DNA of 64,000 bases from Meghimatium bilineatum. Taxonomy: Eukaryota; Mollusca; Gastropoda; Stylommatophora; Philomycidae. The notes under the pieces are model-generated. The model was not told the origin of the DNA, searched no databases, and saw only the letters and a list, made by a program, of their open reading frames with translations. Of this stretch, positions 18,427 through 62,794 are shown in pieces. The DNA lies in assembly GCA_034231615.1 (NCBI GenBank), contig CM067322.1:102819587-102883586 (forward strand), given 5' to 3'. The stretch's first letter is position 1. Each line of letters opens with the position of its first letter. The position numbers were made by a program, and so were the translations under genes.

Positions 18427-18780
18427 TCACCTCGGACTGCTATGCCTGTGCCCATCGGGTACTGAACCTTTTCTCTCCGCGAGCATACTTCCGGTATAGG
18501 AAAGACTCGACAGTAGAGTTGGACTCAGGTTGGGATCACCGGTAACTAAAAGCCTATCTCGAACAAACAATGCTTTAGTTCCAATTTCATCGAACCGTTT
18601 TCTGCGCTCTTTTGCATATGACGCTGTCTTTCTCAGTGTACTCGTATTTTTGTATGTAAAATATGAGGTTAGAAAACCGTCGACTACAATATCCCATGTG
18701 TCAGTGGTCCAATAACGTTTGTTGGGTTGAAAGACAAATATCACAGACTTTGGAGTTTGTTCATCAACTGACATACCTCT
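18427..18780 (-). other. Unrecognised minus-strand open frame beside the minisatellite
   Basis: About 110 codons outside the array are open and of ordinary composition (for example VIFVFQPNKRYWTTDTWDIV and ERRKRFDEIGTKALFV). The start codon lies in or next to the 39-bp array. I recognise no family. It could be a mobile-element relic or a true exon; nothing here decides. Confidence 0.25.
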
Positions 18781-20412
18781 GTGCATACCTCGACACAGAT
18801 CACTTATCCTAGCATTTCCGTGCATACCTCTATACAGATCACTCATCCTGGCATGTCAGTGCATACTTCGACACAGATCACTCATCCTGGCATGTCAGTG
18901 CATACTTCGACACAGATCACTCATCCTGGCATGTCAGTGCATACTTCGACACAGATCACTCATCCTGGCATGTCAGTGCATACTTCGACACAGATCACTC
19001 ATCCTGGCATGTCAGTGCATACCTCGACACAGATCACTCATCCTGGCATGTCAGTGCATACCTCGACACAGATCACTCATCCTGGCATGTCAGTGCATAC
19101 TTCGACACAGATCACCCATCCTGGCATGTCCAAGCATACCTCCAAACAGATCACCCATCCTGGCATGTCCAAGCATACCTCCAAACAGATCACCCATCCT
19201 GGCATGTCCAAGCATACCTCCAAACAGATCACCCATCCTGGCATGTCCGTGTATACCTCGACACAGATCACACATCCTGGCATGTCCGTGCATACTTCGA
19301 CACAGATCATCCATCCTGGCATGTACGTGAATACCTCGACAAAGATCACCCATCCTGGCATGGCTGTGCATACCTCTACACAGAACACCTATCATAGCAT
19401 GTCCGTGTATACCTCTACACAGATCACCCATCCTGGCATGTCCAAGCATACCTCGACACAGATCACCCATCCTGGCATGTCCGTGTATACCTCGACACAG
19501 ATCACTCATCCTGGCATGTCCGTGTATACCTCGACACAGATCACTCATCCTGGCATGTCAGTGCATACTTCGACACAGATCACCCATCCTGGCATGTCCA
19601 AGCATACCTCCAAACAGATCACCCATCCTGGCATGTCCAAGCATACCTCCAAACAGATCACCCATCCTGGCATGTCCAAGCATACCTCCAAACAGATCAC
19701 CCATCCTGGCATGTCCGTGTATACCTCGACACAGATCACACATCCTGGCATGTCCGTGCATACTTCGACACAGATCATCCATCCTGGCATGTACGTGAAT
19801 ACCTCGACAAAGATCACCCATCCTGGCATGGCTGTGCATACCTCTACACAGAACACCTATCATAGCATGTCCGTGTATACCTCTACACAGATCACCCATC
19901 CTGGCATGTCCGTGTATACCTCGACACAGATCACACATCCTGGCATGTCCGTGCATACCTCGACACAGATCACTCATCCTGGCATGTCCAAGCATACCTC
20001 TACACAGATCACCCATCCTGGCATGTCCAAGCATACCTCGACACAGATCACTCATCCTGGCATGTCCGTGCATACCTCGACACAGATCACACATCCTGGC
20101 ATGTCCGTGCATACCTCGACACAGATCACACATCCTGGCATGTCCGTGTATACCTCTACACAGATCACCCATCCTGGCATGTCCGTGTATACCTCGACAC
20201 AGATCACCCATCCTGGCATGTCCGTGTATACCTCGACACAGATCACACATCCTGGCATGTCTGTGTATACCTCGACACAGATCACCCATCCTGGTAGGTC
20301 AGTGTATACCTCCTCACAGATAACCCAACCTGGCATATCCGTGCATACCTCTAACAGATCACCCATCCTGGCATGTCCGTGCATACCTCTACACAGATCA
20401 CCCACTACATAG
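18781..20412. repeat. Minisatellite, 39-bp unit, about 41 copies, with 468-bp higher-order repeat
   Basis: Each 39-bp unit encodes MSVHTSTQITHPG in one plus frame, so the plus strand stays open for 543 codons, and minus frames stay open too. Variant units (for example with TCCAAGCATACCTCCAAACA) recur with an exact 468-bp (12-unit) offset: a block at 19129-19440 reappears at 19597-19908. Units are a multiple of three, which alone explains the long frames. Confidence 0.93.
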
Positions 20413-24076: not shown

Positions 24077-25640
24077 CAGTGTTTCTCAACCTTTTTTGGT
24101 CCATCATCCCTTTGAGCCATAAATTATGTGCTGCCATCACCCCCTTAACCCCACTAGTCTCACGAGGGTAGGTAAAACATTTAACAAATTTGGATAGCAG
24201 GAATTAATTGCACATTTATTCACAATTGTGCTACATGATGATGATAAAGTCACAGTTTAGTTATTGCTCAACTTAATTGGTTATTGCTATGTTGTACTCA
24301 CTGTTGCTCAAGAAATAGGCCTACTTAGTGTGATGGCTGAACTTGGTGAAGGGAAATCAGTTTATCAATGTCTGGTTGAAAAATCACTTAACAGCAATCT
24401 TAGATCACCACATTGAGCAACATGCAGTTGATTTCTTTGTGAAAGTAGTCAGATGACTACACTAAACCCACATTCCACCAAATATGATGTGAGAAATGCA
24501 ATAAGTAAATATTTTACAATTCTGCAAAGTGTTGGATAGCGATTGGAGATTTCCTACTGTAACCTTGGTGACATCGATGGCTGTTTTTGCAGACTGTCAC
24601 GAAGTGTTTGAAAGAAAGATAAATTATCTTCTGCTTTGTCATGATGTGCAGTCTTCAAATGTTCAGTTAATCAGCTTGGTTTCATGGCTTCATTTGAAAA
24701 TACTCTTCCACTTATTAGACACATTGGCAGCTGCTTGTTTGCTGGTGATGGTATGTGGCAGCTGCTTGTTTGTTGGTGATGGTATGTGACAGCTGCTTGT
24801 TTGTTGGTGATGGTATGTGACAGCTGCTTGTTTGTTGGTGATGGTATGTGGCAGCTGCTTGTTTGTTGGTGATGGTATGTGGCAGCTGCTTGTTTGTTGG
24901 TGATGGTATGTGGCAGCTGCTTGTTTGTTGGTGATGGTATGTGACAGCTGCTTGTTTGTTGGTGATGGTATGTGGCAGCTGCTTGTTTGCTGGTGATGGT
25001 ATGTGACAGCTGCTTGTTTGTTGGTGATGGTATGTGACAGCTGCTTGTTTGTTGGTGATGGTATGTGACAGCTGCTTGTTTGCTGGTGATGGTATGTGAC
25101 AGCTGCTTGTTTGTTGGTGATGGTATGTGACAGCTGCTTGTTTGTTGGTGATGGTATGTGACAGCTGCTTGTTTGCTGGTGATGGTATGTGGCAGCTGCT
25201 TGTTTGCTGGTGATGGTATGTGACAGCTGCTTGTTTGTTGGTGATGGTATGTGACAGCTGCTTGTTTGTTGGTGATGGTATGTGGCAGCTGCTTGTTTGC
25301 TGGTGATGGTATGTGGCAGCTGCTTGTTTGCTGGTGATGGTATGTGGCAGCTGCTTGTTTGCTGGTGATGGTATGTGACAGCTGCTTGTTTGCTGGTGAT
25401 GGTATGTGGCAGCTGCTTGTTTGCTGGTGATGGTATGTGGCAGCTGCTTGTTTGCTGGTGATGGTATGTGGCAGCTGCTTGTTTGTTGGTGATGGTATGT
25501 GACAGCTGCTTGTTTGCTGGTGATGGTATGTGGCAGCTGCTTGTTTGCTGGTGATGGTATGTGGCAGCTGCTTGTTTGCTGGTGATGGTATGTGGCAGCT
25601 GCTTGTTTGCTGGTGATGGTATGAATCCATGCCTTAAATA
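24077..25640 (-). mobile_element. hAT remnant (ZBED5/SCAND3-like) containing a minisatellite
   Basis: Left end CAGTGTTTCTCAACCTTTTT matches the Charlie-type hAT terminus. Minus-strand reading in broken frames gives VFSNEAMKPS, a KLIEHLKTxH-like stretch and DNLSFFQTLRDSLQKQPS, then a C-terminus with VECGFSVV and VQPSH followed by a stop near 24335. The middle of the transposase is deleted. The 31-bp array (24728-25622) sits directly upstream of the VFSNEAMKPS part. The right end is not identified. Confidence 0.65.
24728..25622. repeat. Minisatellite, 31-bp unit, about 29 copies
   Basis: Units contain CAGCTGCTTGTTTG(C/T)TGG and TGATGGTATGTG(G/A). Because 31 is not a multiple of 3, three units (93 bp) give a 31-residue protein period; the minus strand is open for 319 codons by this alone. 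Confidence 0.95.
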
Positions 25641-30000: not shown

Positions 30001-33000
30001 CTTAGTAACTGAAATTTGAAGATGGTAACTTAGTAACTGAAATTTGAAGATGGTAACTTAGTAACTGAAATTTGAAGATGGTAACTTAGTAACTGAAATT
30101 TGAAGATGGTAACTTAGTAACTGAAATTTGAAGATGGTAACTTAGTAACTGAAATTTGAAGATGGTAACTTAGTAACTGAAATTTGAAAGCCAGTACAAT
30201 ATGGTTGATCTGCTTTTGAACCATGAGCAAGTTTAAGAGTTGTGCTTGAGAGGCTGGTTCACTAACCTCTCTATGATGAAGCCAAAAATTGCTTGAGAGG
30301 CGTGCTCACTTTTATTTTTACGACGAAGCGAACAATTGCTTGAGAGGCTGGTTCACTAACCTCTCTATGATGAAGACAAAAATCGTGATATATACTGCAG
30401 ACAAAATAACTAGTTTGTCCTGAGCAGTCCAGACATTGATATCTTAATCAGGCTTGATCTTCTTCTTCAGCATTCATTCTCAAACTCCCGCTGGATGTCC
30501 TTTGTTGCATAGCAGGACCATGGTCCTACTAGATTACCAGCAGGATGTAGTCCAGAGAATGGAAATGCATTGTGTCGCCGTTTTATATGCGTCACACACC
30601 TGTTATTCCATACTAAAAATGTTGACTCTTAGTTCGGCCACACACGAGGCATTTCAGCTATTGTAGTCCTGAAGGGGTGTTACAGACCTGACATATTTAT
30701 TACCCAGCGCTGAATGAAATAATTCACGTGGAGGCTTGGATTTCGCTTCTGGTTCAAAGATACCGTTTCTCAATTTTGCGAATTTTATACAGCAGCCAGA
30801 GTTTGTGCATTTGCAAGCACAACTCAACATTTTCCATCGTCATATTTTTGTACAAGTCCTATTAGGTTGTCATTGTTTTTGACCAGTGCACATTCAATAT
30901 TTATACAGGTAAGACAATTTCGTTGTTCTTCATGTTAATTTAGTAGGCCTAATATCATTACTTTACATACAATGTCAAATTTGTTAGATCATCGTTTACC
31001 ATAAGAATGTGCAAAATAAACCTATTATGCCACCATCAAACACTAGTTTAGCATGTATATCTAGTTAGATCTCATTTTACTTGTGCAAATATGATCAAAA
31101 TTAGTTACATTGCGCAATTAGATCATGTAAAAGATTCATTCTTTGTGTAGCATTAACGCTACAAACTTGTCTTCATAATTTTTCTATTCGTGGTCGGCAA
31201 ATATAAGTCCAAAATAAACCTATTATGCCACCATCAAACACTAGTTTAGCATGTATATCTAGTTAGATCTCATTTTACTTGTGCAAATACGATTGAAATT
31301 AGTTTCACTGCGCAATTAGATCATGTAAAAGATTCATTCTTTGTGTAGCATTAACGCTACGAACTTGTTCTGTGTGATAGTTATCAATCGCGGTTGGATC
31401 CCCATAACCGTTTGAATAAGTTCGTTGCATGCTACACATACACAGAAAAGTAATTTACTATTGTAATAAGTATATGTTATACGTTTCTTTTGTGAAAATG
31501 TGTTAATAATATTTTAAAATTTATTTCAAAACAGGATGGATCACTGCAGTTCACTACACATGCGATTTTTGAATGATTTGTGCAGAATTTGTGTAGGAAG
31601 AACATTATCTAAGAAAGATAAAAGGATGCAGAAGAAACCACGATCCTGTAGCTTATATCAAAGTGACCTGGCTAGTATTTATGGGATACATATCATGGAC
31701 AATAGTGAAACAAAACATTCAACCACATTGTGTGTCAAGTGTGTAATGCGAAATCATAAACTCAAAATCAACAAGGATAGTAAATCTCTAGCTCGAGCCA
31801 AATTGATAGCTACTAACAGTGCCCTCATCTGGATGGATTTTAATCCTAACCTAACTGTTTTAGAATGTTCCGTGTGTAGTTATCATCAAAGTATGAACTG
31901 TGGCAGCATAAAAAGAAAGAGAGTTTTTGATAATTCTGATAATGATCATGATGTATCTGTGTCTGTGTTATTTCCTGCTACAGAAACAGAGGAAGATATT
32001 CTAATGTCAGTGACAGCAAGATTGTCTCCACAACTCACCAATAGTAATAACAAACAATCCAACAAATTTAACAGTACCCACAGCTCGCCGTTGTCTTCAA
32101 TATAATAATGGAATATTTTCCACATTTGCAACAAATGCATATCCACAATGTAGCTATACCAGCACACCTTCCATATTTACACCTGCATTTGCACATCTTC
32201 ACTATAACAGCACACCTTCCACATTTACAACACCTGCATATCCACAATGTAGTTATACCAGAACACCCTCCACATATTTTAGACCTTCAACGCCCAATAA
32301 CATACACGATTCTGCTATATCTAGCATATATCCTGCAGTTACAACATGTACAGTTTCTGAATTCAGAAAGTTAACATCAGACAGCACCACTTCTCCCATG
32401 ATGAAACATGGCTTTAGTTTTTAAAAATCTATCAACAAACCTATATCAGAACCATTGACAAATAAGGAGGAATTAGTTCAGTTTGAAAGTGAAATATATT
32501 TTGTTGGTTGAGTGAAATGCTATTGCGAAACTGTGTGTGCATTTAACGTTATTATACTATACACTGTTTTCGTTGCCACAAGAGAAGGAACTAAACAAAG
32601 TTAAGAGGTTCTAAAAACACTTAATATGAAGAAAGAATTACTAAGAGAAATCAAGATTAGACAAATAAAATATTTTGGACACATTAAAAGAAGTGACACC
32701 TTATTGAAGACCTTACTTGAAGGTAAAGTCAAAGGGAAACGAGCATGAGGTAGACAGAGATACGAGATACGTGTGGGAGAATAACATCACAAGATGGACA
32801 GGGTACAGTCTAGCAGAGTGCATCACCAAAACAAGAGGCAGGGGATGTTGAGATCTGTTGCAGCCAACCTTTGTTGCAGAAATGGTACTAGATGATGTCT
32901 ACCTGCCAAGTTTCTGGCTTGCCTCCCCTGATTTCACCAAGGGACAATTGAAGGGTTTCTCTTATTTCCCTTGAATTTTCTAATTGCAATTGAATTGACA

Positions 33001-36000
33001 GTGGGCGTGAACAGTGAACACACCCACCTCTGGTTTATTGATATCTCCTAAAAACTAAAAGTTTGTCCAGTTTCAGGTGTGGTCAATGTCCCGACACATC
33101 TGTCTTTGGCAAGATCAGGCTTGATCAAATTTGGGATAATGCGGTGAGTGGTCACTTAGTTGATCAAAGTTGGGATAATGGGGTGAGTGGCGACTTAATT
33201 GCCTCTTACTTAGTTCCCTTGTACTTGACACTGTTTCTATTGTGAGCTCCCCTGTCCTGCTACAGTAACACACATGGAGGATGACATGAATAAAGAAGAG
33301 AAATATGTTGCTCTATTCATTTAAACAAAAATACAATAATGGCAGCTGATGTAGAAGTGCTCATGTAACAGAACTTCTCTGCTTGTTTGTTATAAATCTG
33401 TGCATTTATTCTCCTGGGCATGCAAGAGTCATTAGCAATGAAAGAGCCAACAGATTAGCGTCAAAAGTACCAATACTAGGAGAATTAGTTGTGGACAAGA
33501 ACAACATATTAAGATCTGTACATGAATATTTTCTTCTTCTTCTGCATTCAGCATCTGCAGTCATGTTATATTGTCAGGCCTGTCATCATGGCGAAGTCCA
33601 ATGTCTTCTCCAGGTCATAGCAGCTGCCCCAAAGCTTTTACCTCAAATCTTCTTCTTCTGGTACGATCTGTTGTCTCTGCTCTTTGTATGTTGGACAATC
33701 CTGAAGTATTTGTTCAGGAGTCTGGGTGAACATTTCCTAAATGAGGACATTAAACTGGAAGGAGATATGATGTGAGTAAAAGAATTTGGAATTACCCCTA
33801 GGACAAGCAGAACAGGGTGACTAAGGGGGCGTCTAAGGTGTGTATGTAACTAGCAAGCTACAGGAATCATCATCATGCATATTCTTTGTCATGTGCTGTG
33901 AGAGACAGAGCGACTATGGGTTTGCCCAGAGTGCTTCAACGTCGATTCTTCTTTTTCATTGCTCATTCTCAAACTCCCGCTGGATCTCTCTTGTAGCAGG
34001 ACAACATTCTCAAACTCCTACTGGATCTCTCTTGTAGCAGGACAATGTTCTCAAACTCCCAGTGGATCTCTCTTGTAGCAGGACAACATTCTCAAACTCC
34101 CGCTGGATCTCTCTTGTAGCAGGACAATGCTGCTACTAGATATCCAGCAGGATGTAGTCCAGAGAATGGAAATGTGTTGTGTCACAATTGTATTTGAGCT
34201 AATGGCCTGACACATCCATCTTCTGCACCAATGTCAATTCAGAAAACTAAAATTGTTATATCAAATACCTCTTACCTGACAAATCCAATAGATTTGGCTT
34301 CATCAGAGTTAAATCGTCGTCCTGTGTATGTTAACTCACGAAAGGAACTATCATTTCCAACAATTTTCTGGAAACGTTGCAGTGTACCCAGGTCTGCTGC
34401 CAGTCCAATGTCTATTTCCTGAAATATTACACATTCAAAGAATCTACTTAGAACAGCAACAAAACATTAAAGATAAACAAAACAATATAAAATACACAAT
34501 GTAATATCTTAGTAGTCAGCTGGAATCTTAGTAATCAGGGTCATAGGCACAACTTTAGTAAGTGGGTGCGGCTATCTGTTACTGTTAAATAAAAAGGTAA
34601 TTTGCCCATTTTTTGGTCTTTCTTTTAAAAGAAAAAAAATTCCTTTCTTTTAAAGAAAAATCATAATGCAGCAAACAGGATTTGAACCAGGTGTGCTCAG
34701 ATGGCACCTACTTGCCTCGCTACCTGAGTCAACATGTTTAGGGATATTCGATCATACCACATCCCTAAAGAAAGATGTGAATTTAGTCAAGGCTTTCAAT
34801 GTACATATTGCTAAGCTACTATGAATATGGACCTGTCAAACGACACACAGACAACAACAATAACAACACTGTACAGGCATATAAATTCTTTAAGAGCCAC
34901 AAACATTTTAACATCGCATGTGCCAGATGGCCTCAGCACTACTTATTGTGGTTAATGATTTTTCTTTAATATTAAATCCTCGATGCTTATACTGTACTGT
35001 ACTGTACTGTACTATACTGTACTATACTATTATATTTGTTAATGAGGCTCTCTACCTCTCCCCTTATATACAGGCTTGAGAATGATATGGATGTTGTTTA
35101 GAAACCAGACCCTATAGTCTACACCAACGCAGACCCTATAGTCTACACCAACCCAGACCCTATAGTCTACACCAACCCAGACCCTATAGTCTACACCAAC
35201 CCAGACCCTATAGTCTACACCAACAACATAAGCAATAAAGATTTGACTTGGAACTGGCTACTGCAGGCTACAGAACCACTTATACTGGAACAGGGTGACC
35301 CACTGAAATGAATGTCCATGTAGAAAAGAAACACAAACTCCTGAAGACATACTTCAAGACTGCCCTGAGTTCAATAAAATGTGAGGAAAGATCACCAGAC
35401 TGGACTGAGCTTCTTCTTCAGCGTTTAGTCTTATACTCCCACTGGATCTCTCTTGTAGCAGGACAATGGTCCAACTAGATTTCTAGCAGAATGTAATCCA
35501 GAAAACGGAAATGAAATGCTTTGTGTCGCCATTTTATTTGTGCTAATGGCCCGACAGATCCATCTTCGATGGAGGACTGAGCTGAGACTCAGGTTTTGGA
35601 GCTATTGTTCTGACCTGAAGTTTTTTCCTTGTGACCAGCCTAAAGATCTAGTAAAAGCAATGGAAACCCTGAACGTAGAAGATGAATCATATTTATTATT
35701 TTGTATCATTGTTGTTTCTTATCTACACTGATCTACAGCTGGTGCAGCAGGGATTATGCCTATAGCAGATCAAGAAAGGAAACACTCCACTAAAGTGTCC
35801 CAGGAACCTTCTATGTTTGTTTTATCTGGATATAGATCAGATGGTCAGATCAGGTGCTGCATCAAAGACCAGATGGTCAAAACTTAAAACTGCATGTTAG
35901 TCCATTTCTTATATCTCATCATTATCATCATCAGGTGCTGCATCAAATATTGCAACGTCTGTCTCTTGCCTTAGTGGTGCACTCTGCTAGACTGCAACCT

Positions 36001-46135: not shown

Positions 46136-46632
46136 AGATGTGTCTGGCAATTCATGTAAATAAAACAGTGATACAATGATGAACGGCCATGCTCAGATGT
46201 GTCTGGTAACTCACACAAATAAAACAGTGGTACCATGTATTTGTGTTCTACATCCTACTGGAAATCTAGTAGGTCCATCATCCTGTTACATGAAAGATCA
46301 TGCTGGAAAAATAGTAGGTCAATCATCCGGTTACATGAGAGATCCTGCTGGAAATCTAGTAGGTCCATCATCCTGTTACATGAAAGATCATGCTGGAAAA
46401 ATAGTAGGTCAATCATCCGGTTACATGAGAGATCCTGCTGGAAATCTAGTAGGTCCATCATCCTGTTACATGAAAGATCATGCTGGCAAAATAGTAGGTC
46501 AATCATCCGGTTATATGAGAGATCCTGCTGGAAATCTAGTAGGTCCATCATCCTGTTACATGAAAGATCATGCTGGAAAAATAGTAGGTCAATCATCCTG
46601 TTACATGAGAGATCCTGCAGGAGTTTGAGAAT
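46136..46632 (+). mobile_element. SINE-B with 90-bp higher-order expansion
   Basis: The head occurs about twice, then a 90-bp unit (two related 45-bp halves: GGAAATCTAGTAGGTCCATC and GGAAAAATAGTAGGTCAATC) is repeated four times, ending in the normal GATCCTGCAGGAGTTTGAGA tail. It begins 41 bp upstream of ECH1 exon 1. Long frames on both strands here are due to the multiple-of-three unit. Confidence 0.88.
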
Positions 46633-46667
46633 AACAACTAAAATAGAAAACTATTTTGTAGAATGTC

Positions 46668-47428
46668 TGTATTTATTCTCAAACTCTTGCAGATTAGCAG
46701 GATATAGCCTGGAGAATGGAATGTGTTGTTTCATGGTTTACAGATTTGCTGCGATATCTACACTTTTCGGCAAGACACATCCAACTTTAGCATAGTTCCT
46801 GGGTCACTTTGACCCTATACAGAATGGGACAGCTATCTACACTCCATAACTTTTTTAAGGTAAAGGTGGGTACTAAGGCAGCAACCTGACATCGGGGATG
46901 AAGATAGCTCTTCAAGTACTAAGCCACAGCAACTATTAGGTCATAACTATTCTAATCATATAACTCCTGTGACATGATGATGATGTTCCTCCGGCGCAAG
47001 AGAAGATGAGCATGGCATAAAAAAAACAATAAAAATGTGAAGTTGAAAAAAAAAAAAAAAACATAAATCATTTGTGATTGTCTAATTTGGTTTGGGTTTG
47101 TGAGTTTGTAGATGCCTGATGAGTCCGACTCATGTCGGGAAAGTTCTATTGCAGTGCATGCAGGAGGTCGGGGTAGGAGAGTTTTCGGATTTGTCTTTGC
47201 GCTTCCATCGCTTGAAAATTGTGTGCAGTGCTCTCTCTTTTTCAATTTTAGTGATGCCAGCAGTAACCTGAGTGTGCCAAGCTGAACGATCAAGGGCTGT
47301 AGTCTCCCAGGAGCTACGATCGATGCTGCAGTGCTGGAGAGAATTCTTTAGGCACTCTTATGACATGTATGAAATGTAAACAGTGTTGCTATTCTCTGCT
47401 TCCCTTTTGGTCCGGCAAAACACAGGTG
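46668..47428 (-). mobile_element. SINE-A split by an insert of about 500 bp
   Basis: The 3' two-thirds (46668-46855) and the 5' head (47360-47428, ACAGTGTTGCTATTCTCTGC) are separated by foreign sequence that includes a LINE C-terminus. Precise insert ends are not clear. Confidence 0.65.
47120..47350 (-). mobile_element. LINE C-terminus with C2H2-type end
   Basis: Minus strand reads TAGITKIEKERALHTIFKRW, then CMHCNRTFPTR with LIRHLQTH across a frame change: the C-terminal zinc finger tail seen in some LINE polyproteins. It shares this layout with 51469-52300. Confidence 0.65.
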
Positions 47429-48764: not shown

Positions 48765-49892
48765 ATGACACACATTTTTAAGAACAAAAATGTAAACATA
48801 GACACTAAAGTTGCTTTATACAAGACTATTATTATTATAGTCCAACACCAGCAACTATGGGAGATAATGAACAGCATGGGTTTCCCAAGACATCTGATTC
48901 ATCTAATAGAGGAACTTTACCAAGATCAAAAGGCTGCAGTGAAGTTAGAGGACGATCTCTCAGAATGGTTTGAGGTACAGAGTGGAGTAAGGCAAGGGTG
49001 CACACTCTCCCCATACCTGTTCAACATCTACGCTGAAAGTATAATGAGGAACGTGAGAGAAGACATTCACAACACTGACTACCACGCTTTAAACATAGGT
49101 GGATTCCTAATCCCGGAACTACGCTACGCAGACGACACAGTACTTCTTTCAAACGATATAAAGGGATTGGAACAACTAATCAAGAACACAAAGAAATATA
49201 GCGAAGCACAAAATTTGTATTTAAACACGCAGAAAACAAAAATCATGTCAACAGATATAACAACACAACAACCAAAAATCAGAATTGACAATACCGAGAT
49301 AGAATGTGTGGATAAATTTGAATACTTAGGAGCAAACATCAACGGTGCAGGAGACTGCATGGCAGAAATAAGGAAGAGATTGGCAATGGCATATTGCAAA
49401 ATAACACGGCTGAAAAACATATGGAAAAACAAAATAGAAACGAAAGTGCTAATGTTACGAACTTTTATTTTTCCGGTTGCAACATACGGCTGTGAAACAT
49501 GGACTCTAAGTAAAACAGCGGCAAAGAAGATCAACGCCTTCGAGCTGAAATGCTACAGAAAGATACTTAGAATATCATGGAAGGATAAGATCAGAAACTC
49601 TGATATTATAAACACACTGAATATTCCAGAGTGTTGGTTACTAAACACAATAACAAAAAGAAAACTACGCCTGTTTGGTCATATAAAGAGACATAACTGT
49701 TTAGAAAGACAAATAATGGAGGGAAGAGTACCTGGGAAGAGGAGAAGGGGCAGACCAAGAAGACGATGGACTGATGACATTAAAGAAAACATGAATACAT
49801 CGCTAGAAAATGCAAGCCACATCGCCCAAGACAGAGAGAGGTTCAGAGAGTTCATTGGGAAGACAACGTTCTGGAAGGAATACGTCACATGA
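48765..49892 (+). CDS. LINE-F reverse transcriptase, C-terminal two-thirds, intact frame
   Basis: Open for 375 codons. Homology to LINE RT starts near residue 27 (QHQQLWEIMNSMGFPRHLIH). Motif B-type [14 protein letters not shown] is at 76-89 and the catalytic YADD box at 121-124. C-terminal parts: FEYLGANINGAGDCMAEIRK, FPVATYGCETWTLSKT, KLRLFGHIKRHN, RRGRPRRRWTDDIKE, FWKEYVT and stop, then an (ATT)n tail. The RT domain copies the element's RNA at a nicked target. The first catalytic Asp (motif A) and the endonuclease are absent: the copy is 5'-truncated, and the first 26 codons come from adjoining sequence, so the ATG is not a true start. It is the best RT in the window. Confidence 0.85.
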   Translation: MTHIFKNKNVNIDTKVALYKTIIIIVQHQQLWEIMNSMGFPRHLIHLIEELYQDQKAAVKLEDDLSEWFEVQSGVRQGCTLSPYLFNIYAESIMRNVREDIHNTDYHALNIGGFLIPELRYADDTVLLSNDIKGLEQLIKNTKKYSEAQNLYLNTQKTKIMSTDITTQQPKIRIDNTEIECVDKFEYLGANINGAGDCMAEIRKRLAMAYCKITRLKNIWKNKIETKVLMLRTFIFPVATYGCETWTLSKTAAKKINAFELKCYRKILRISWKDKIRNSDIINTLNIPECWLLNTITKRKLRLFGHIKRHNCLERQIMEGRVPGKRRRGRPRRRWTDDIKENMNTSLENASHIAQDRERFREFIGKTTFWKEYVT

Positions 49893-55199: not shown

Positions 55200-58100
55200 A
55201 TGGCAGACTCTGAGAATGAGGAGGTAACTGGATATTATTTAAACATCTACTGATTATACCTGCCGTGCTTTATTAATAATAATAACAATTGCTTATCTGT
55301 AAAAAAAATTTTTAGAATTGAAAATAATTCACTAAGACCACCACATTTAGAGAAATGACATTATTAATTTCATTTGTTTGTTTCTTTACTGCTCCTAAAC
55401 AACGATCTCTTGGACTTGTGTCTTGTGAGTGTCTTGTCTTGTGTAGTGCAGAGTGTACAACAGTACACTGTACACAGTACGAATACTGGGGATAGAGTGA
55501 GCTGTTGAGAGCCGTGATTGCCTAGACCAGTCGGCATGGCACCATAGAATGAATGTTTCTACGCAGTCAATGGCAACAAATTATAGGTCTACTAGGCTAC
55601 TTAGCCTACTACTCGGTAGCCTACTTATCCATAATCCAGCGTAGCCGTAAATGAGGCTACCTGATCATTTGCCCCGTTAATAATAATGATAATGACCTGA
55701 CTGCATCTGACAATTCACAATGAGATGATGTTTTGAGACTGAGATCTCAGCAGATCATTGATAATGCCAGAGCTGAGATGTTGAGATGTGATTCTATCTT
55801 ATAATTTATATCTTCCTGTTAGTTAGTTAGTTAGTCGTCGGATCATCATCACTGCAAACTAGACACATCCATAGTTGCTCCGATCTCTCCTTGAGTGTAT
55901 CCGCCATCACACTTCTGCTGACAGTACCGGTCCTATGCTGGTTGACCATCATTCTTCTGCGCCCTCCAAAATGTTCACCTCTAGCAACACTGCATTTCAA
56001 TCCCTGATCTTTAATCCTAGCCATTGAAAAGGAATCATCATCCACATTAGTCTCACTCTCGCGTGTTATATCTCTTAAGGAGTTCAAAATGTCAGCGCGA
56101 TCCATTGCCCCATCACCCTTTGCCACAATCGCACACGATGCCAGTTGATCCGCTCTTTCATTGCCTCGAACGCCCACATGTCCCGGCACAAAAATAAATG
56201 TAACCACTTTCAAGCTCGCATTTTCGCATCTTCTGGTTATTATACATAATACTAATTAACTTTAATTATAAATATTAAATACTAAAACCTGATCCTTAAC
56301 CTTAAATGCTAATTCTAATACAGTCATTTTCAATAAATATCAATTTATTTTAAATACTAATTATATTCCAAATTCAATCATACAGTGGCGATATGCATAG
56401 CAATCACACTGGAAAGATCAGGAAATACCTCGAAAGTAGAACAAAGGTCACAGTGAAGACTTAAACTAGACTTGAGCCTAGGCAGTCTAGTGGACAATTA
56501 GTCATTGCAGTCTAGGTTTTCAAAACAGACTTAGACTAGATCAAAAGCAAAGAGTATCAACCTTACCTGCCACTAGTGCCATGCATGTTGTAGGAGGCGA
56601 CTAAGTAAGAAGGCTTTAGATTTTATGTCCCATCCCATGAAGAATCAGTGACTTAGAAGCTATCCCGAAGTTGAATATGTTAGAAAAAAAGGTGCAGATA
56701 TTGCAGCTAATCTGTTAACCATGGCACAATACAACATATTCTCTGGTCTACATCCTGCTAATATGCAGGAGTTTGAGATTGAATGAAGAAGAATAAGAAA
56801 ATGGCTATTGTTGAAGGATTTATATTTATATTTCCCTTTTTTTAAATAGAGTTCCCAAGCAGATGCAAGTTCTATTCATGGTAGTAGAGATTCAAGCCCT
56901 GCAGGTAGCCACAGGAGTGGTAGCCCTAGAGGTAGCCACATGAGTGGCAGCCCTGCAGGTAGCCATAGGAGTGGCAGTCCTGCAGGTAGCCACAGGAGTG
57001 GCAGTCCTACAGGTAGCCACATGAGCGGCAGTCCAGCAGGTAGTCACATGAGCGGCAGTCCTGCAGGTAGTCATAGGAGTGGTAGTCCTGCAGGTAGCCA
57101 CATGAGTGGTAGTCCTGCAGGTAGCCACAGGAGTGTTAGCCCTGAAGATAGTCAGAGGGGTGGTAGTCAAGGCAGTAGCAGAAGTGGAAGTCCTGCAGGA
57201 AGCATCAGGAGTGCAAGTCCAGCAGGAAGCAACAGAAGTGGAAGTCCCACAGGCAGTATTAGTCCAGTCAGAAGCCATCACAGCGGCAGTCCAGCTGGGA
57301 GTCAGAGAAGTGGTAATATCTATTATCAATATCATTTATGTGCTTTTCTTGTTATTGAACAATTTTCCACTGTTATGTACTTGTTGCTCAAAGTTTTGCG
57401 TTCGTTCTCAAACTCCAGTTAGATTTCTCTTATAGCAGGACAATGGTCCTACAAGATGTCCAATAGGATTTAGTCTAGAGAACAGAAATGTGTTGTGTCA
57501 TGTTTTATTTGCACCAATGGCCATACCAGTTACATCTGACTTTGATGTTGGAAACTTCAGTGTTTTTACCTCTTCCACTGAACAGTGGAAGTCTATTACC
57601 GTATATATGGTATAGTTGACCAGCATGCAAGAGAACTAGTTTCTGTACCTACCGTATAGATGGTATAGTTGGCCAGCATGCAAGAGAACTAGTTTCTGTA
57701 CCTACCGAAAAGATGGTATAGTTGGCCAGCATGCAAGAGAACTAGTTTCTGTACCTACCGAAAAGATGGTATAGTTGGCCAGCATGTAAGAGAACTAGTT
57801 TCTGTACCTACCGTATAGATGGTATAGTTGGCCAGCATGTAAGAGAACTAGTTTCTGTACCTACCGTATAGATGGTATAGTTGGCCAGCATGTAAGAGAA
57901 CTAGTTTCTGTACCTACCGTATAGATGGTATAGTTGGCCAGCATGTAAGAGAACTAGTTTCTGTAACTACTGTATAGATTGTTAGTTAGTTAGTTAGTCG
58001 TCGGATCATCATCACTGCAAACTGGACATGTCCATAGTTGCTCCGATCTCTCCTTGAGTGTATCCGCCATTACACTTCTGCTGACAGTACAGGTCCTATG

Positions 58101-61100: not shown

Positions 61101-62659
61101 TGACCTCCTTGGTCACCTTTTACGACATTCATGGCAGGTAACAGTGTTGATATCCTTTGTTCTCATCTCAGGGTATGTCAACACACAGTTGTGTGAATTT
61201 TATTCATATCAACACACAGGTGTATGGAGTTTATTCATGCCAACACACAAGTGTGTGGAGTTTATTCATGCCAACACACAAGTGTGTGGATTTTATTCAT
61301 GTCAACACACGGGCGTGTGGGGTTTAGTCTTGTAGATGTAGCATCTATTTCTTCTATACCTGGTGTCACAATATAGATCCCCCCCCCCTTTTTTTCACCT
61401 GGACTCACATCTTTTGCTAATCCATCTGTGAATACCACCAGTTTATATATTTTTCTTCTCATTGGCCCATCATGTTGATATCTGCAGTGTTGTCTTTTGT
61501 ATAAATTAGATAAATTAGATGGTTTTTGTGTGTTTGTGCGACTGTATTGTCAAGGCCTGTTGTAAGAGGTGACTACGGATGTTTGGGGGAATGGAGTTGG
61601 CTGTCCTTTCCCATAGAGGTTCAAACTGACCCATATGCCATGTTGAAGTCGGATGTGTCAAGCAGAGATGTGTGGATATCGAAGTGAAGCTGTAAACCCA
61701 TTCCGTTCTCTAGACTACATTCTGTTAATATGCAGATATTTGAGACTGAATGCAGAAGAAGAAGAAGAAAAAATGGTGTTGTTTTCCATTTCTTGTTTTG
61801 CAGCACATGGTTTAACATTGGTGTGTTTGGAAACCTAGTAAGTGTTAATGTTCATATATCTTTGTTGTAGATGCCTTTTCTCTCTATGATGATAGCGTTT
61901 AACATTTTCTTCTAGCATGATGTTTATAATTTTTATGATGTTTAGTGTTTTTTAATGTGATGGTTTTATATTTTAATGTTATTTAATAGTTTTATGATGG
62001 TGTTTATTTAAAAAAAAAATGATGGTGAATGTGTTTCTTGTTTTTCAGAAGTGGTAGCAATGTAAGCAGTCATAGGAGTGTCAGTCCAACTGGTAGTCAG
62101 AAAAGTGGAAGTCCAAGAAGCAGGAGTGGAAGTCCAGTGGGTAGTCATAGGAGTAGAAGTGGGAGTCCAGTTGGCAGTCATAGAAGTGGGAGTCCAGTTG
62201 GCAGTCACAGAAGTGGGAGTCCAGTTGGCAGTCACATAAGTAGGAGTCCTGCTGGTAGTCACAGGAGCAGAAGTGGGAGTCCTGTTGGTAGTCACAGAAG
62301 CAAAAGTGGTAGTCCAGCTGTCAGCCACAGAAGTAAAAATGGGAGTCCAGTAGGTAGCCACCGAAGCAGGAGTAGGAGTCCGGCTGTCAGCCACAGAAGC
62401 AAAAGTGGGAGTCCGGCTGTCAGCCACAGAAGCAAAAGTGGGAGTCCGGCTGTCAGCCACAGAAGCAAAAGTGGGAGTCCAGCAGGCAGCCACAGAAGCA
62501 AAAGTGCGAGTCCAGCAGGCAGCAACAGAAGCAGGAGCGGAAGTCCTGGTAGCCATGCAAGTGGAAGTCCTGTGGGAAGCCACCGGAGTGGTAGCTCGGA
62601 TGGCCGTAAGAGCAGAAGTGGTAGTCCAAGAAGTGGGTCAGGACACAGCAGTCGTGCAG
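55200..62659 (+). CDS. Ser/Gly/Pro/His/Arg-repeat protein, 4 exons, 3' incomplete
   Basis: Exons: 55200-55223 (MADSENEE), 56850-57312, 59461-59542, 62049-62659. Junctions are GAG|GTAACT, AAATAG|AGT, TG|GTAATA, TATATAG|GT, AG|GTGAGC, TTTTCAG|AA and GCAG|GTAGGG. Phases run 0, 1, 2 and 1 without a clash, giving about 393 residues so far. The ATG has a good context (AAAATGG). The protein is almost wholly SGSPAGSHRSGSP-type repeats that shift to SRSGSP/SKSGSP near its end, so it is low-complexity, basic and probably nuclear; dense Ser-Pro and Arg-Ser sites suggest phosphorylation. The acidic start followed by repeats recalls the N-terminal regions of transcription elongation factors such as IWS1, but no conserved domain lies in the window and I do not name it. 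Introns hold SINEs, LINE-RH2 copies and minisatellites. Minus-strand frames over exons 2 and 4 are shadows of the repeats. Confidence 0.75.
55815..56216 (-). mobile_element. LINE-RH2 3' end
   Basis: 128 open codons: FVPGHVGVRGNERADQLAS (RNase H C-terminal motif with the last catalytic Asp), then MVNQHRTGTVSRSV, LWMCLVCSDDDPTTN and stop, followed at the left by a (TTAG)n tail (TAAC in the sense direction). It sits in intron 1 of the repeat-protein gene. Confidence 0.8.
56569..56793 (+). mobile_element. SINE-A, diverged, 56 bp before an exon
   Basis: Landmarks ATGTTGTAGGAGGCGACTAA and TGCAGGAGTTTGAGATTGAA with the GAAGAA end. It is immediately upstream of exon 2 of the repeat-protein gene. Confidence 0.78.
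57396..57545 (-). mobile_element. SINE-B copy
   Basis: CTCAAACTCCAGTTAGATTT, GGACAATGGTCCTACAAGAT and GTCTAGAGAACAGAAATGTG. In intron 2 of the repeat-protein gene. Confidence 0.8.
57595..57975. repeat. Minisatellite, 53-bp unit, about 7 copies
   Basis: Units GTATAGTTGGCCAGCATG(T/C)A, AGAGAACTAGTTTCTGTACC, TACCG(TAT/AAA)AGATG. It abuts the LINE-RH2 tail at 57976. Confidence 0.93.
57976..58262 (-). mobile_element. LINE-RH2 3' end, second copy
   Basis: Same C-terminus as 55815-56216 (MVNQHRTCTVSRSV, CPVCSDDDPTTN) and same (TTAG)n tail, but truncated before the RNase H motif at 58262. Confidence 0.8.
58263..58900. other. Intron 2 stretch with a short dispersed repeat
   Basis: A 22-bp match in inverted orientation (core CCGCTGGATCAGCAACCAAC) links 58385-58410 with 6797-6820. 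Otherwise unassigned. Confidence 0.35.
58945..59380. repeat. Minisatellite, 32-bp unit, about 13 copies
   Basis: Units ACTATAAAGTTTTCTAATAT and TCTGTTGTTGTT, some with a 3-bp deletion. It ends 80 bp before exon 3 of the repeat-protein gene and contributes to its intron. Confidence 0.94.
59592..59720. repeat. Interspersed repeat R2, second copy
   Basis: See 41236-41385. In the minus direction it reads TTGATAAAGGCCTTTTGATC then GAAACATC, a hammerhead-like arrangement (59689-59718). Confidence 0.55.
60014..60062 (+). mobile_element. SINE-B tail fragment
   Basis: GGGAAGTTTGATAATGAACG plus GAAGAA tail only. Confidence 0.5.
60407..60640 (+). mobile_element. Two SINE-A head fragments in tandem
   Basis: Two 3'-truncated copies of the SINE-A 5' third (60407-60510 and 60525-60640), both with AGCAAAGAATAACG and GTGACTAAAGG/GATGACTAAAGA. 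Confidence 0.72.
60922..61170 (-). mobile_element. SINE-A copy
   Basis: CTCAAACTCCTGCAGATTAA, GATCACTTTGACCCTCAATA and GACATTCATGGCAGGTAACA. Confidence 0.82.
61190..61325. repeat. Minisatellite, 31-bp unit, about 4 copies
   Basis: Units ACACACAAGTGTGTGGAGTT plus TATTCATGCCA. Confidence 0.85.
61330..61470 (-). mobile_element. RNase H N-terminal fragment of a LINE
   Basis: Minus strand reads KLVVFTDGLAKDVSPGEKKG and GGIYIVTPG, the first strand of RNase H with its Asp (FTDG) but without the rest. A poly-C run interrupts it near 61380. Confidence 0.6.
61553..61768 (+). mobile_element. SINE-A copy
   Basis: GTTGTAAGAGGTGACTACGG, GGAGTTGGCTGTCC, GAAGTCGGATGTGTCA, ending with an expanded (GAA)n tail. 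In intron 3 of the repeat-protein gene. Confidence 0.82.
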
Positions 62660-62794
62660 GTAGGGGAATTAGTTATTTTCACTATGGTAACAACCTTAAG
62701 TTTTGTAAATACATTTTCAGTTTTAAAAGGGGGGGGGGGGGATTTACCCACATATTGACTAAATTTCTAGTACTAAAAGTCATGTTATGATTTT

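Follow-up and report, generated by a model that had tools for sequence, protein, structure and literature searches.

Chapaev elements are DNA transposons of the CMC group. Part of PMC3985635 equates DUF1280 with Chapaev transposases and places it in one small clade with RAG1. The hallmarks of these elements, as given in a section of PMC4079192, are a 3- to 4-bp target site duplication (TSD), CAC and GTG termini, a DDE triad, and the C(2)C, LH and H(4)H motifs. The N-terminal region that Chapaev transposases share with RAG1 was earlier named the Chapa domain (PMC4411706, in the portion relevant here); the relationship between the two N-termini is, therefore, known, and the family described below is a further member. 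In passages of a review (PMC8355894), some Transibs are the only other transposons with a 12/23 asymmetry, and recognition of the 12/23 rule is tied to RAG2.

Here, we present an analysis of a stretch of 64,000 nucleotides of Meghimatium bilineatum (contig CM067322.1, positions 102,819,587 to 102,883,586; the window). The original prediction was that an ORF at 31536..32425 resembles the RAG1 N-terminus, is without a catalytic core, and probably derives from an N-RAG-TP-type transposon. These coordinates are too narrow, as the feature is a transposon occupying 30595-33081 (Table 1). We conclude that it is very probably a defunct copy, with an internal deletion, of a Chapaev-type cut-and-paste DNA transposon that is young and present in many copies. 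The full-length form encodes a single 979-aa transposase, in which a RAG1-like N-terminal zinc region is followed by a Thr/Pro/Ser linker that has no RING finger and then by the Chapaev/DUF1280 core.

Table 1. Features of the transposon copy, in positions of the window
Feature	Position	Strand	Basis
Transposon copy, 2487 bp, internally deleted, non-autonomous	30595..33081	+	Sibling ends and two related empty sites in the window
TSD GTCA, left	30591..30594	.	
TSD GTCA, right	33082..33085	.	
Left heptamer-like block CACACCT	30595..30601	+	
Left nonamer-like block ACTCTTAGT (siblings ACTTTTAGT), 23 bp past the heptamer-like block	30625..30633	+	
Tandem repeat, two units, period of ~200 bp; longer arrays in siblings	31009..31368	+	
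189-aa ORF with three CxxC pairs, RAG1 C1-C2-C3-like (Chapa domain)	31536..32105	+	ORF translation, profile and hhalign
Remainder of the coding frame (Thr/Pro/Ser linker), shifted here by a net +4 nt upstream	32106..32424	+	
Internal-deletion junction; 2754 bp of the full-length sibling gone, core included	32475..32476	+	
3' untranslated part retained from the full-length form; 98% identity to sibling	32476..33081	+	
Right nonamer-like block ACTTTTAGT; spacer to the heptamer-like block, 12 bp	33054..33062	-	
Right heptamer-like block CACACCT	33075..33081	-	

Comparison of the flanks of copies gave sharp termini, CACACCTG and CAGGTGTG, which in the window lie at 30595 and 33081. A repeat occurs three times in the window (30455-30594, 33944-34223, and 35406-35567); the transposon lies inside one of these repeats, and the other two are empty sites. 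The joined flanks with a single GTCA align ungapped over the junction within 34130-34270 (score 104), and a second empty site lies within 35470-35620 (score 89; the highest score among 500 shuffles was 32). Together with the genome copies and the flank alignment, the empty sites bear out the expectation of a mobile element with transposon ends and target duplications. Upstream of the ORF, the ~200-bp tandem units are more numerous in the siblings L009 and L051 than in the window. Within the 3' untranslated part, the stretch at ~32640-32900, which is also present in the full-length sibling, resembles by eye the coding sequence at the 3' end of a retroposon (IKYFGHIKR) and, also by eye, the end of the reverse transcriptase ORF at 48765-49892 (Pfam RVT_1, E 8.5e-22). 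Elsewhere in the window, long ORFs of short peptide repeats (18427-20412, 24671-25630, 46176-46795, 56892-57422, and 62008-62790) are tandem-repeat DNA that is open in several frames.

We searched the window's own genome (1.61 Gb, 32 contigs) for siblings. At DNA level, there are at least 40 matches that are ~98% identical (all 40 scored of 358 candidates match), and the core of the copy on C24, used as a protein query, gave at least 109 matches (102 of 575 candidates scored). Six of the seven copies read at both ends have a 4-bp duplication (GTCA in the window, TGCA on C14, ACCG on C6, ATTT on C3, CAGT on C19, and TGTG on C7), while the copy on C24 has none; the right end of the copy on C9 was not found by flank comparison. 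Open frames of 979, 979, and 977 aa are present in L037, L040, and L038, respectively. L037, on C19 (14532631-14539286), is a full-length copy of 6656 bp. The window element is collinear with L037 up to 32475, lacks 2754 bp, and is then collinear again to the end, except that the number of tandem units differs. The identity between siblings is 98.2 to 99.8% (three pairs compared). Other copies are deletion derivatives of their own: those on C24 and C14 are 4137 bp long, the former with an in-frame TAA; L049 on C8 is another such derivative; and L053-L056 are derivatives without a start codon or first CxxC pair. Relatives were also sought in bacterial/archaeal and viral collections, where candidates matched the pattern and none was confirmed.

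The ORF carries DLCRIC, TLCVKC, and ECSVC in the order foreseen, with W-DFNPN ahead of the third CxxC pair and GSIKRKR behind it. Past its stop, the predicted Thr/Pro/Ser-rich second frame is present in +1 and ends at a stop at 32422-32424. The suspicion of a frameshift also proved correct: in 10 of the 13 sibling loci compared, one gap of 4 nt, with the extra bases in the window copy, is the only gap, while the other three (L038, L053, and L055) show larger net differences; in the genome, 35 of 40 matches are 886 bp long, and the corresponding stretch of the window is 890 bp. Because all 13 sibling loci differ from it by 4 nt or more, the frameshift is peculiar to the window copy. This copy is unable to make the full transposase.

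The core that is deleted from the window copy is intact in L037, in which residues 402-578 match Pfam DUF1280 (PF06918; E 3.9e-17). Because the window copy lacks 2754 bp compared with a sibling that has a Chapaev core, it is an ordinary non-autonomous Chapaev element. The other features of the family agree with those of Chapaev elements: the termini are 5'-CAC and GTG-3' (CACACCTG...CAGGTGTG), the TSD is 4 bp in six of seven copies and at the empty sites, and L037 has CLWC at 612 (C2C), LH at 679, and HILEFH at 901 (H4H). L040, though its frame is open, reads CLWR where L037 has CLWC. By reading of the sequence, GGD at 521, GDY at 592, and GEQGGE at 922 are candidates for the DDE triad of L037. 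A RING finger is missing from L037, which has four CxxC in total and none between residues 115 and 611. Compared with the RAG1 core by hhalign, the Chapaev core gave E 0.27, which is not significant; PF12940 (RAG1 core) gave no match in the genome, with a control that was likewise silent everywhere. A PDB search with the 979-aa protein gave no match. Broken pieces of the core were too scattered to be aligned and were left out.

The element could instead have been of the N-RAG-TP type proper, i.e., with the RAG1 N-terminus only and a core that was never present, as the window copy and many others carry the N-terminal part alone. We consider this most improbable, because near-identical siblings hold the core in-frame and, outside the deletion, are collinear with the window copy; moreover, in the largest class of N-terminus-only copies, which have an open frame of 276 aa, neither the start codon nor the first CxxC pair is left. 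This possibility is, thus, refuted for the family, unless the full-length form gained its core later. The prediction of an element without a catalytic core is correct for the window copy and other deletion derivatives and incorrect for the family, whose full-length members encode the core in-frame. Two gene candidates were rejected on the same grounds: the in-frame Chapaev core in L037, L040, and L038, together with the collinearity outside the deletion, rules out a coreless gene, and the loss of the start codon and first CxxC pair rules out a separate N-terminus-only gene with the 276-aa frame.

To assess the RAG1 likeness of the N-terminus, we used a RAG1 N-terminal sequence as query, which is recognized by Pfam (E 1.5e-90). 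Against L037, it scored 63, while shuffles had a mean of 29 (SD 5) and 0 of 2000 reached 63; with Cys and Trp fixed, the mean was 32 (SD 5) and again 0 of 2000 shuffles reached the score. Against L057, it scored 47, a value reached by 9 of 2000 shuffles and by 33 of 2000 with Cys and Trp fixed. Five N-termini, of which two (window and L037) are 97% identical, were combined into a profile and compared with 177635 distinct PDB sequences at E up to 10; the sole match was the RAG1 chain 21wb_A (E 0.0012), with a marginal best stretch (0.047), and the RAG1 chains of 1040 residues in the PDB were not matched by this profile. Using hhalign, the N-termini align with RAG1 at E 1.9e-5 and a probability of 78 over 103 columns that run through all three CxxC pairs of the Chapa domain or RAG1 C1-C2-C3. 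The shuffle scores, the match to 21wb_A, and the hhalign alignment uphold the proposed resemblance. The profile search suggested for this purpose gave a divided result: the five-sequence profile and hhalign detected RAG1, while phmmer with the window ORF alone gave no RAG1 in the PDB, and PF12560 (RAG1_imp_bd) was absent at E up to 10 in all proteins scanned. Searched against the genome, PF12560 gave three weak matches (best E 0.35). The best of them (G000:C6:19536909-19537277) lies by its coordinates at the start of an L057-family frame; judging from these coordinates, its register would put the first CxxC on RAG1 C1.

The L057 family (G000:C2:61112500-61120000), a Chapaev family of much greater divergence, also has these three CxxC pairs. 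The positions of the CxxC pairs and the Trp are identical in this family, at an identity of 29%, which is beyond chance, although in shuffles of the bare N-terminus, at least three CxxC occurred in 213 of 20000. Several broken N-terminal frames of this family are arranged as inverted pairs at distances of 1 to 2.5 kb, like fold-back derivatives (for example, C19:61238960 and C19:61241407). The L057 N-terminus also has a weak zf-AD match (E 1), raising the alternative that the RAG1 likeness is convergence in an unrelated CxxC zinc domain, e.g., of the zf-AD type; in line with this alternative, the PF12560 cut-off is never reached and the distances between the CxxC pairs are 50 and 45 here versus 65 and 35 in RAG1. 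Convergence, nevertheless, appears improbable: RAG1 is the only profile match in the PDB set, hhalign covers all three pairs, no shuffle with Cys and Trp kept in place attains the L037 score (as opposed to that of L057), and a shared Chapa domain has been reported (PMC4411706, in part).

Both ends of the transposon consist of CACACCT and a ACTTTTAGT-like block, 23 bp apart at the left end and 12 bp apart at the right end, where the values of 23 and 12 assume a seven-base heptamer by analogy while the difference of 11 is independent of that choice. The RAG nonamer is ACAAAAACC; the nonamer-like block here is ACTTTTAGT. Siblings have CACACCTG at both ends, followed by ACTTTTAG, which occupies positions 31-38 at the left end and 20-27 at the right end, and the left block of the window copy has one change (ACTCTTAG). 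The family, thus, has the two conserved blocks with 12- and 23-bp spacing at opposite ends that characterize a 12/23 signal. This pattern was noticed before being tested; with the offset left free, 500 of 20000 shuffles had a shared 8-mer past the octamer, and with the offset set to 11, 8 of 20000 did. L058 is an older relative, with 82 to 89% identity over two long coding stretches; its left end retains 8/8 positions of the first block and 10/10 at positions 31-40, compared with 12/22 in the spacer and 6/20 in the next twenty; its right end was not found. Ends of the L057 family were not found either. That family has a sharp edge, which may be another inserted repeat because a second set of matches, running from the opposite side, stops at the same base and there is no CAC at this place.

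Genome-wide, CACACCTG followed by ACTTTTAG at a gap of 4-34 gave 619 matches, while the pattern read backwards gave 65; decayed ends escape the exact pattern, and because the families are related, the matches are not independent events. A gap of 11 accounts for 422 matches (control, 1) and a gap of 22 for 141 (control, 0), together 563 of the 619 at two of the 31 gaps allowed, whereas the other 29 gaps have 56 together, i.e., 1.9 each compared with 2.1 each in the control, and are background. Among 100 matches listed, the gaps are 11 (71 matches), 22 (24), 21 (2), and 6, 18, and 24 (1 each). Among the listed matches with letters, distinct spacers number 32 of 60 at gap 11 and 12 of 22 at gap 22; some columns are fixed across the spacers, and the long spacers with the lowest similarity agree at 7/22 positions. 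On C1-C6, 99 places with gap 11 and 31 with gap 22 form 17 neighboring pairs within 10 kb, of which 13 face inward, 3 are in tandem, and 1 faces outward; all 13 inward pairs combine one 12 and one 23. At G000:C1:89110616-89124056, three 23-type ends precede two 12-type ends, as if elements had inserted beside or into each other.

The gaps of 11 and 22 may have been fixed by accident: an 11-bp indel in one end of a founder would have passed to all copies, and the spacing would be without function. We regard this as a real possibility, although we lean against it. The families are related and the spacers have fixed columns, so that the matches are not independent, kinship alone accounts for the mixed pairing in 13 of 13 cases, and the order of noticing and testing also speaks for an accident. 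However, spacers are down to 7/22 identical positions between families, yet only 11 and 22 exceed the control; the L058 spacer has changed to 12/22 while its blocks stay at 8/8 and 10/10; and drift would be expected to yield some other gaps. In the mechanism that we propose, the transposase from full-length copies would bind both end blocks, pair the one-turn end with the two-turn end, cut at CAC, and insert with a 4-bp stagger. Because both ends are retained in the deleted copies, these could be mobilized in trans by the transposase of siblings. We speculate, by analogy with RAG1, that protein contacts or binding of the ends are the probable role of the zinc region.

In the literature searched, which left the 2008 N-RAG-TP paper and Repbase Reports outside, we found no statement on 12/23-spaced Chapaev ends and no paper on Chapaev together with a nonamer. 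The 2008 N-RAG-TP paper reportedly discusses ends resembling recombination signals, and part of our finding may, therefore, be known. The portion of PMC4411706 considered is silent on 12/23 Chapaev ends. We tentatively suggest that a Chapaev lineage outside Transib and RAG could combine a RAG1 C1-C2-C3 N-terminus with working 12/23 ends, both perhaps from a Chapaev-RAG ancestor that predated RAG2. If true, this bears on the source of the RAG1 N-terminus and of the 12/23 rule, and the pairing of one-turn and two-turn signals would be open to study in a single-protein transposase; the near-identical copies with an open transposase frame in this genome offer a test system for the origin and mechanics of 12/23 pairing. 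Internal deletion is one route to N-terminus-only elements.

Like RAG1, RAGL, and ProtoRAG, the family has the N-terminal C1-C2-C3 zinc pairs and ends with a heptamer-like CAC and an A/T-rich second block, and it shares the 12 and 23 spacing with vertebrate signals. Its core has no significant match to that of RAG1 by hhalign, nor a match to PF12940 in the search with the silent control. In contrast to RAG1/RAGL, its duplication is 4 bp rather than 5 bp; the spacers of ProtoRAG are 27/31 (PMC8355894, in part) compared with 23/12 here. Some Transibs also have 12/23-asymmetric CAC ends, as described in the same part of that review; however, Transib is without a RAG1-type N-terminus (PMC7204232, in part) and makes 5-bp duplications (PMC8355894, in part), whereas this family has such an N-terminus, 4-bp duplications, and a DUF1280 core. 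N-RAG-TP of Aplysia is likewise a mobile element with a RAG1 N-terminus-like protein; by its description in part of PMC8355894, to which our comparison is confined, it consists entirely of the RAG1 N-terminal part, while the family here encodes a core. N-RAG-TP may itself be an internal-deletion derivative. The closest agreement is with Chapaev, with which the family shares CAC...GTG ends, a 4-bp duplication, the DUF1280 core, C2C/LH/H4H, and a Chapa-type N-terminus (PMC4411706, in part). It differs from two Chapaev subgroups, which have a RING finger according to the same part of that paper, in being without one and from Chapaev, as described in the papers searched, in having bipartite ends with 12/23 spacing.
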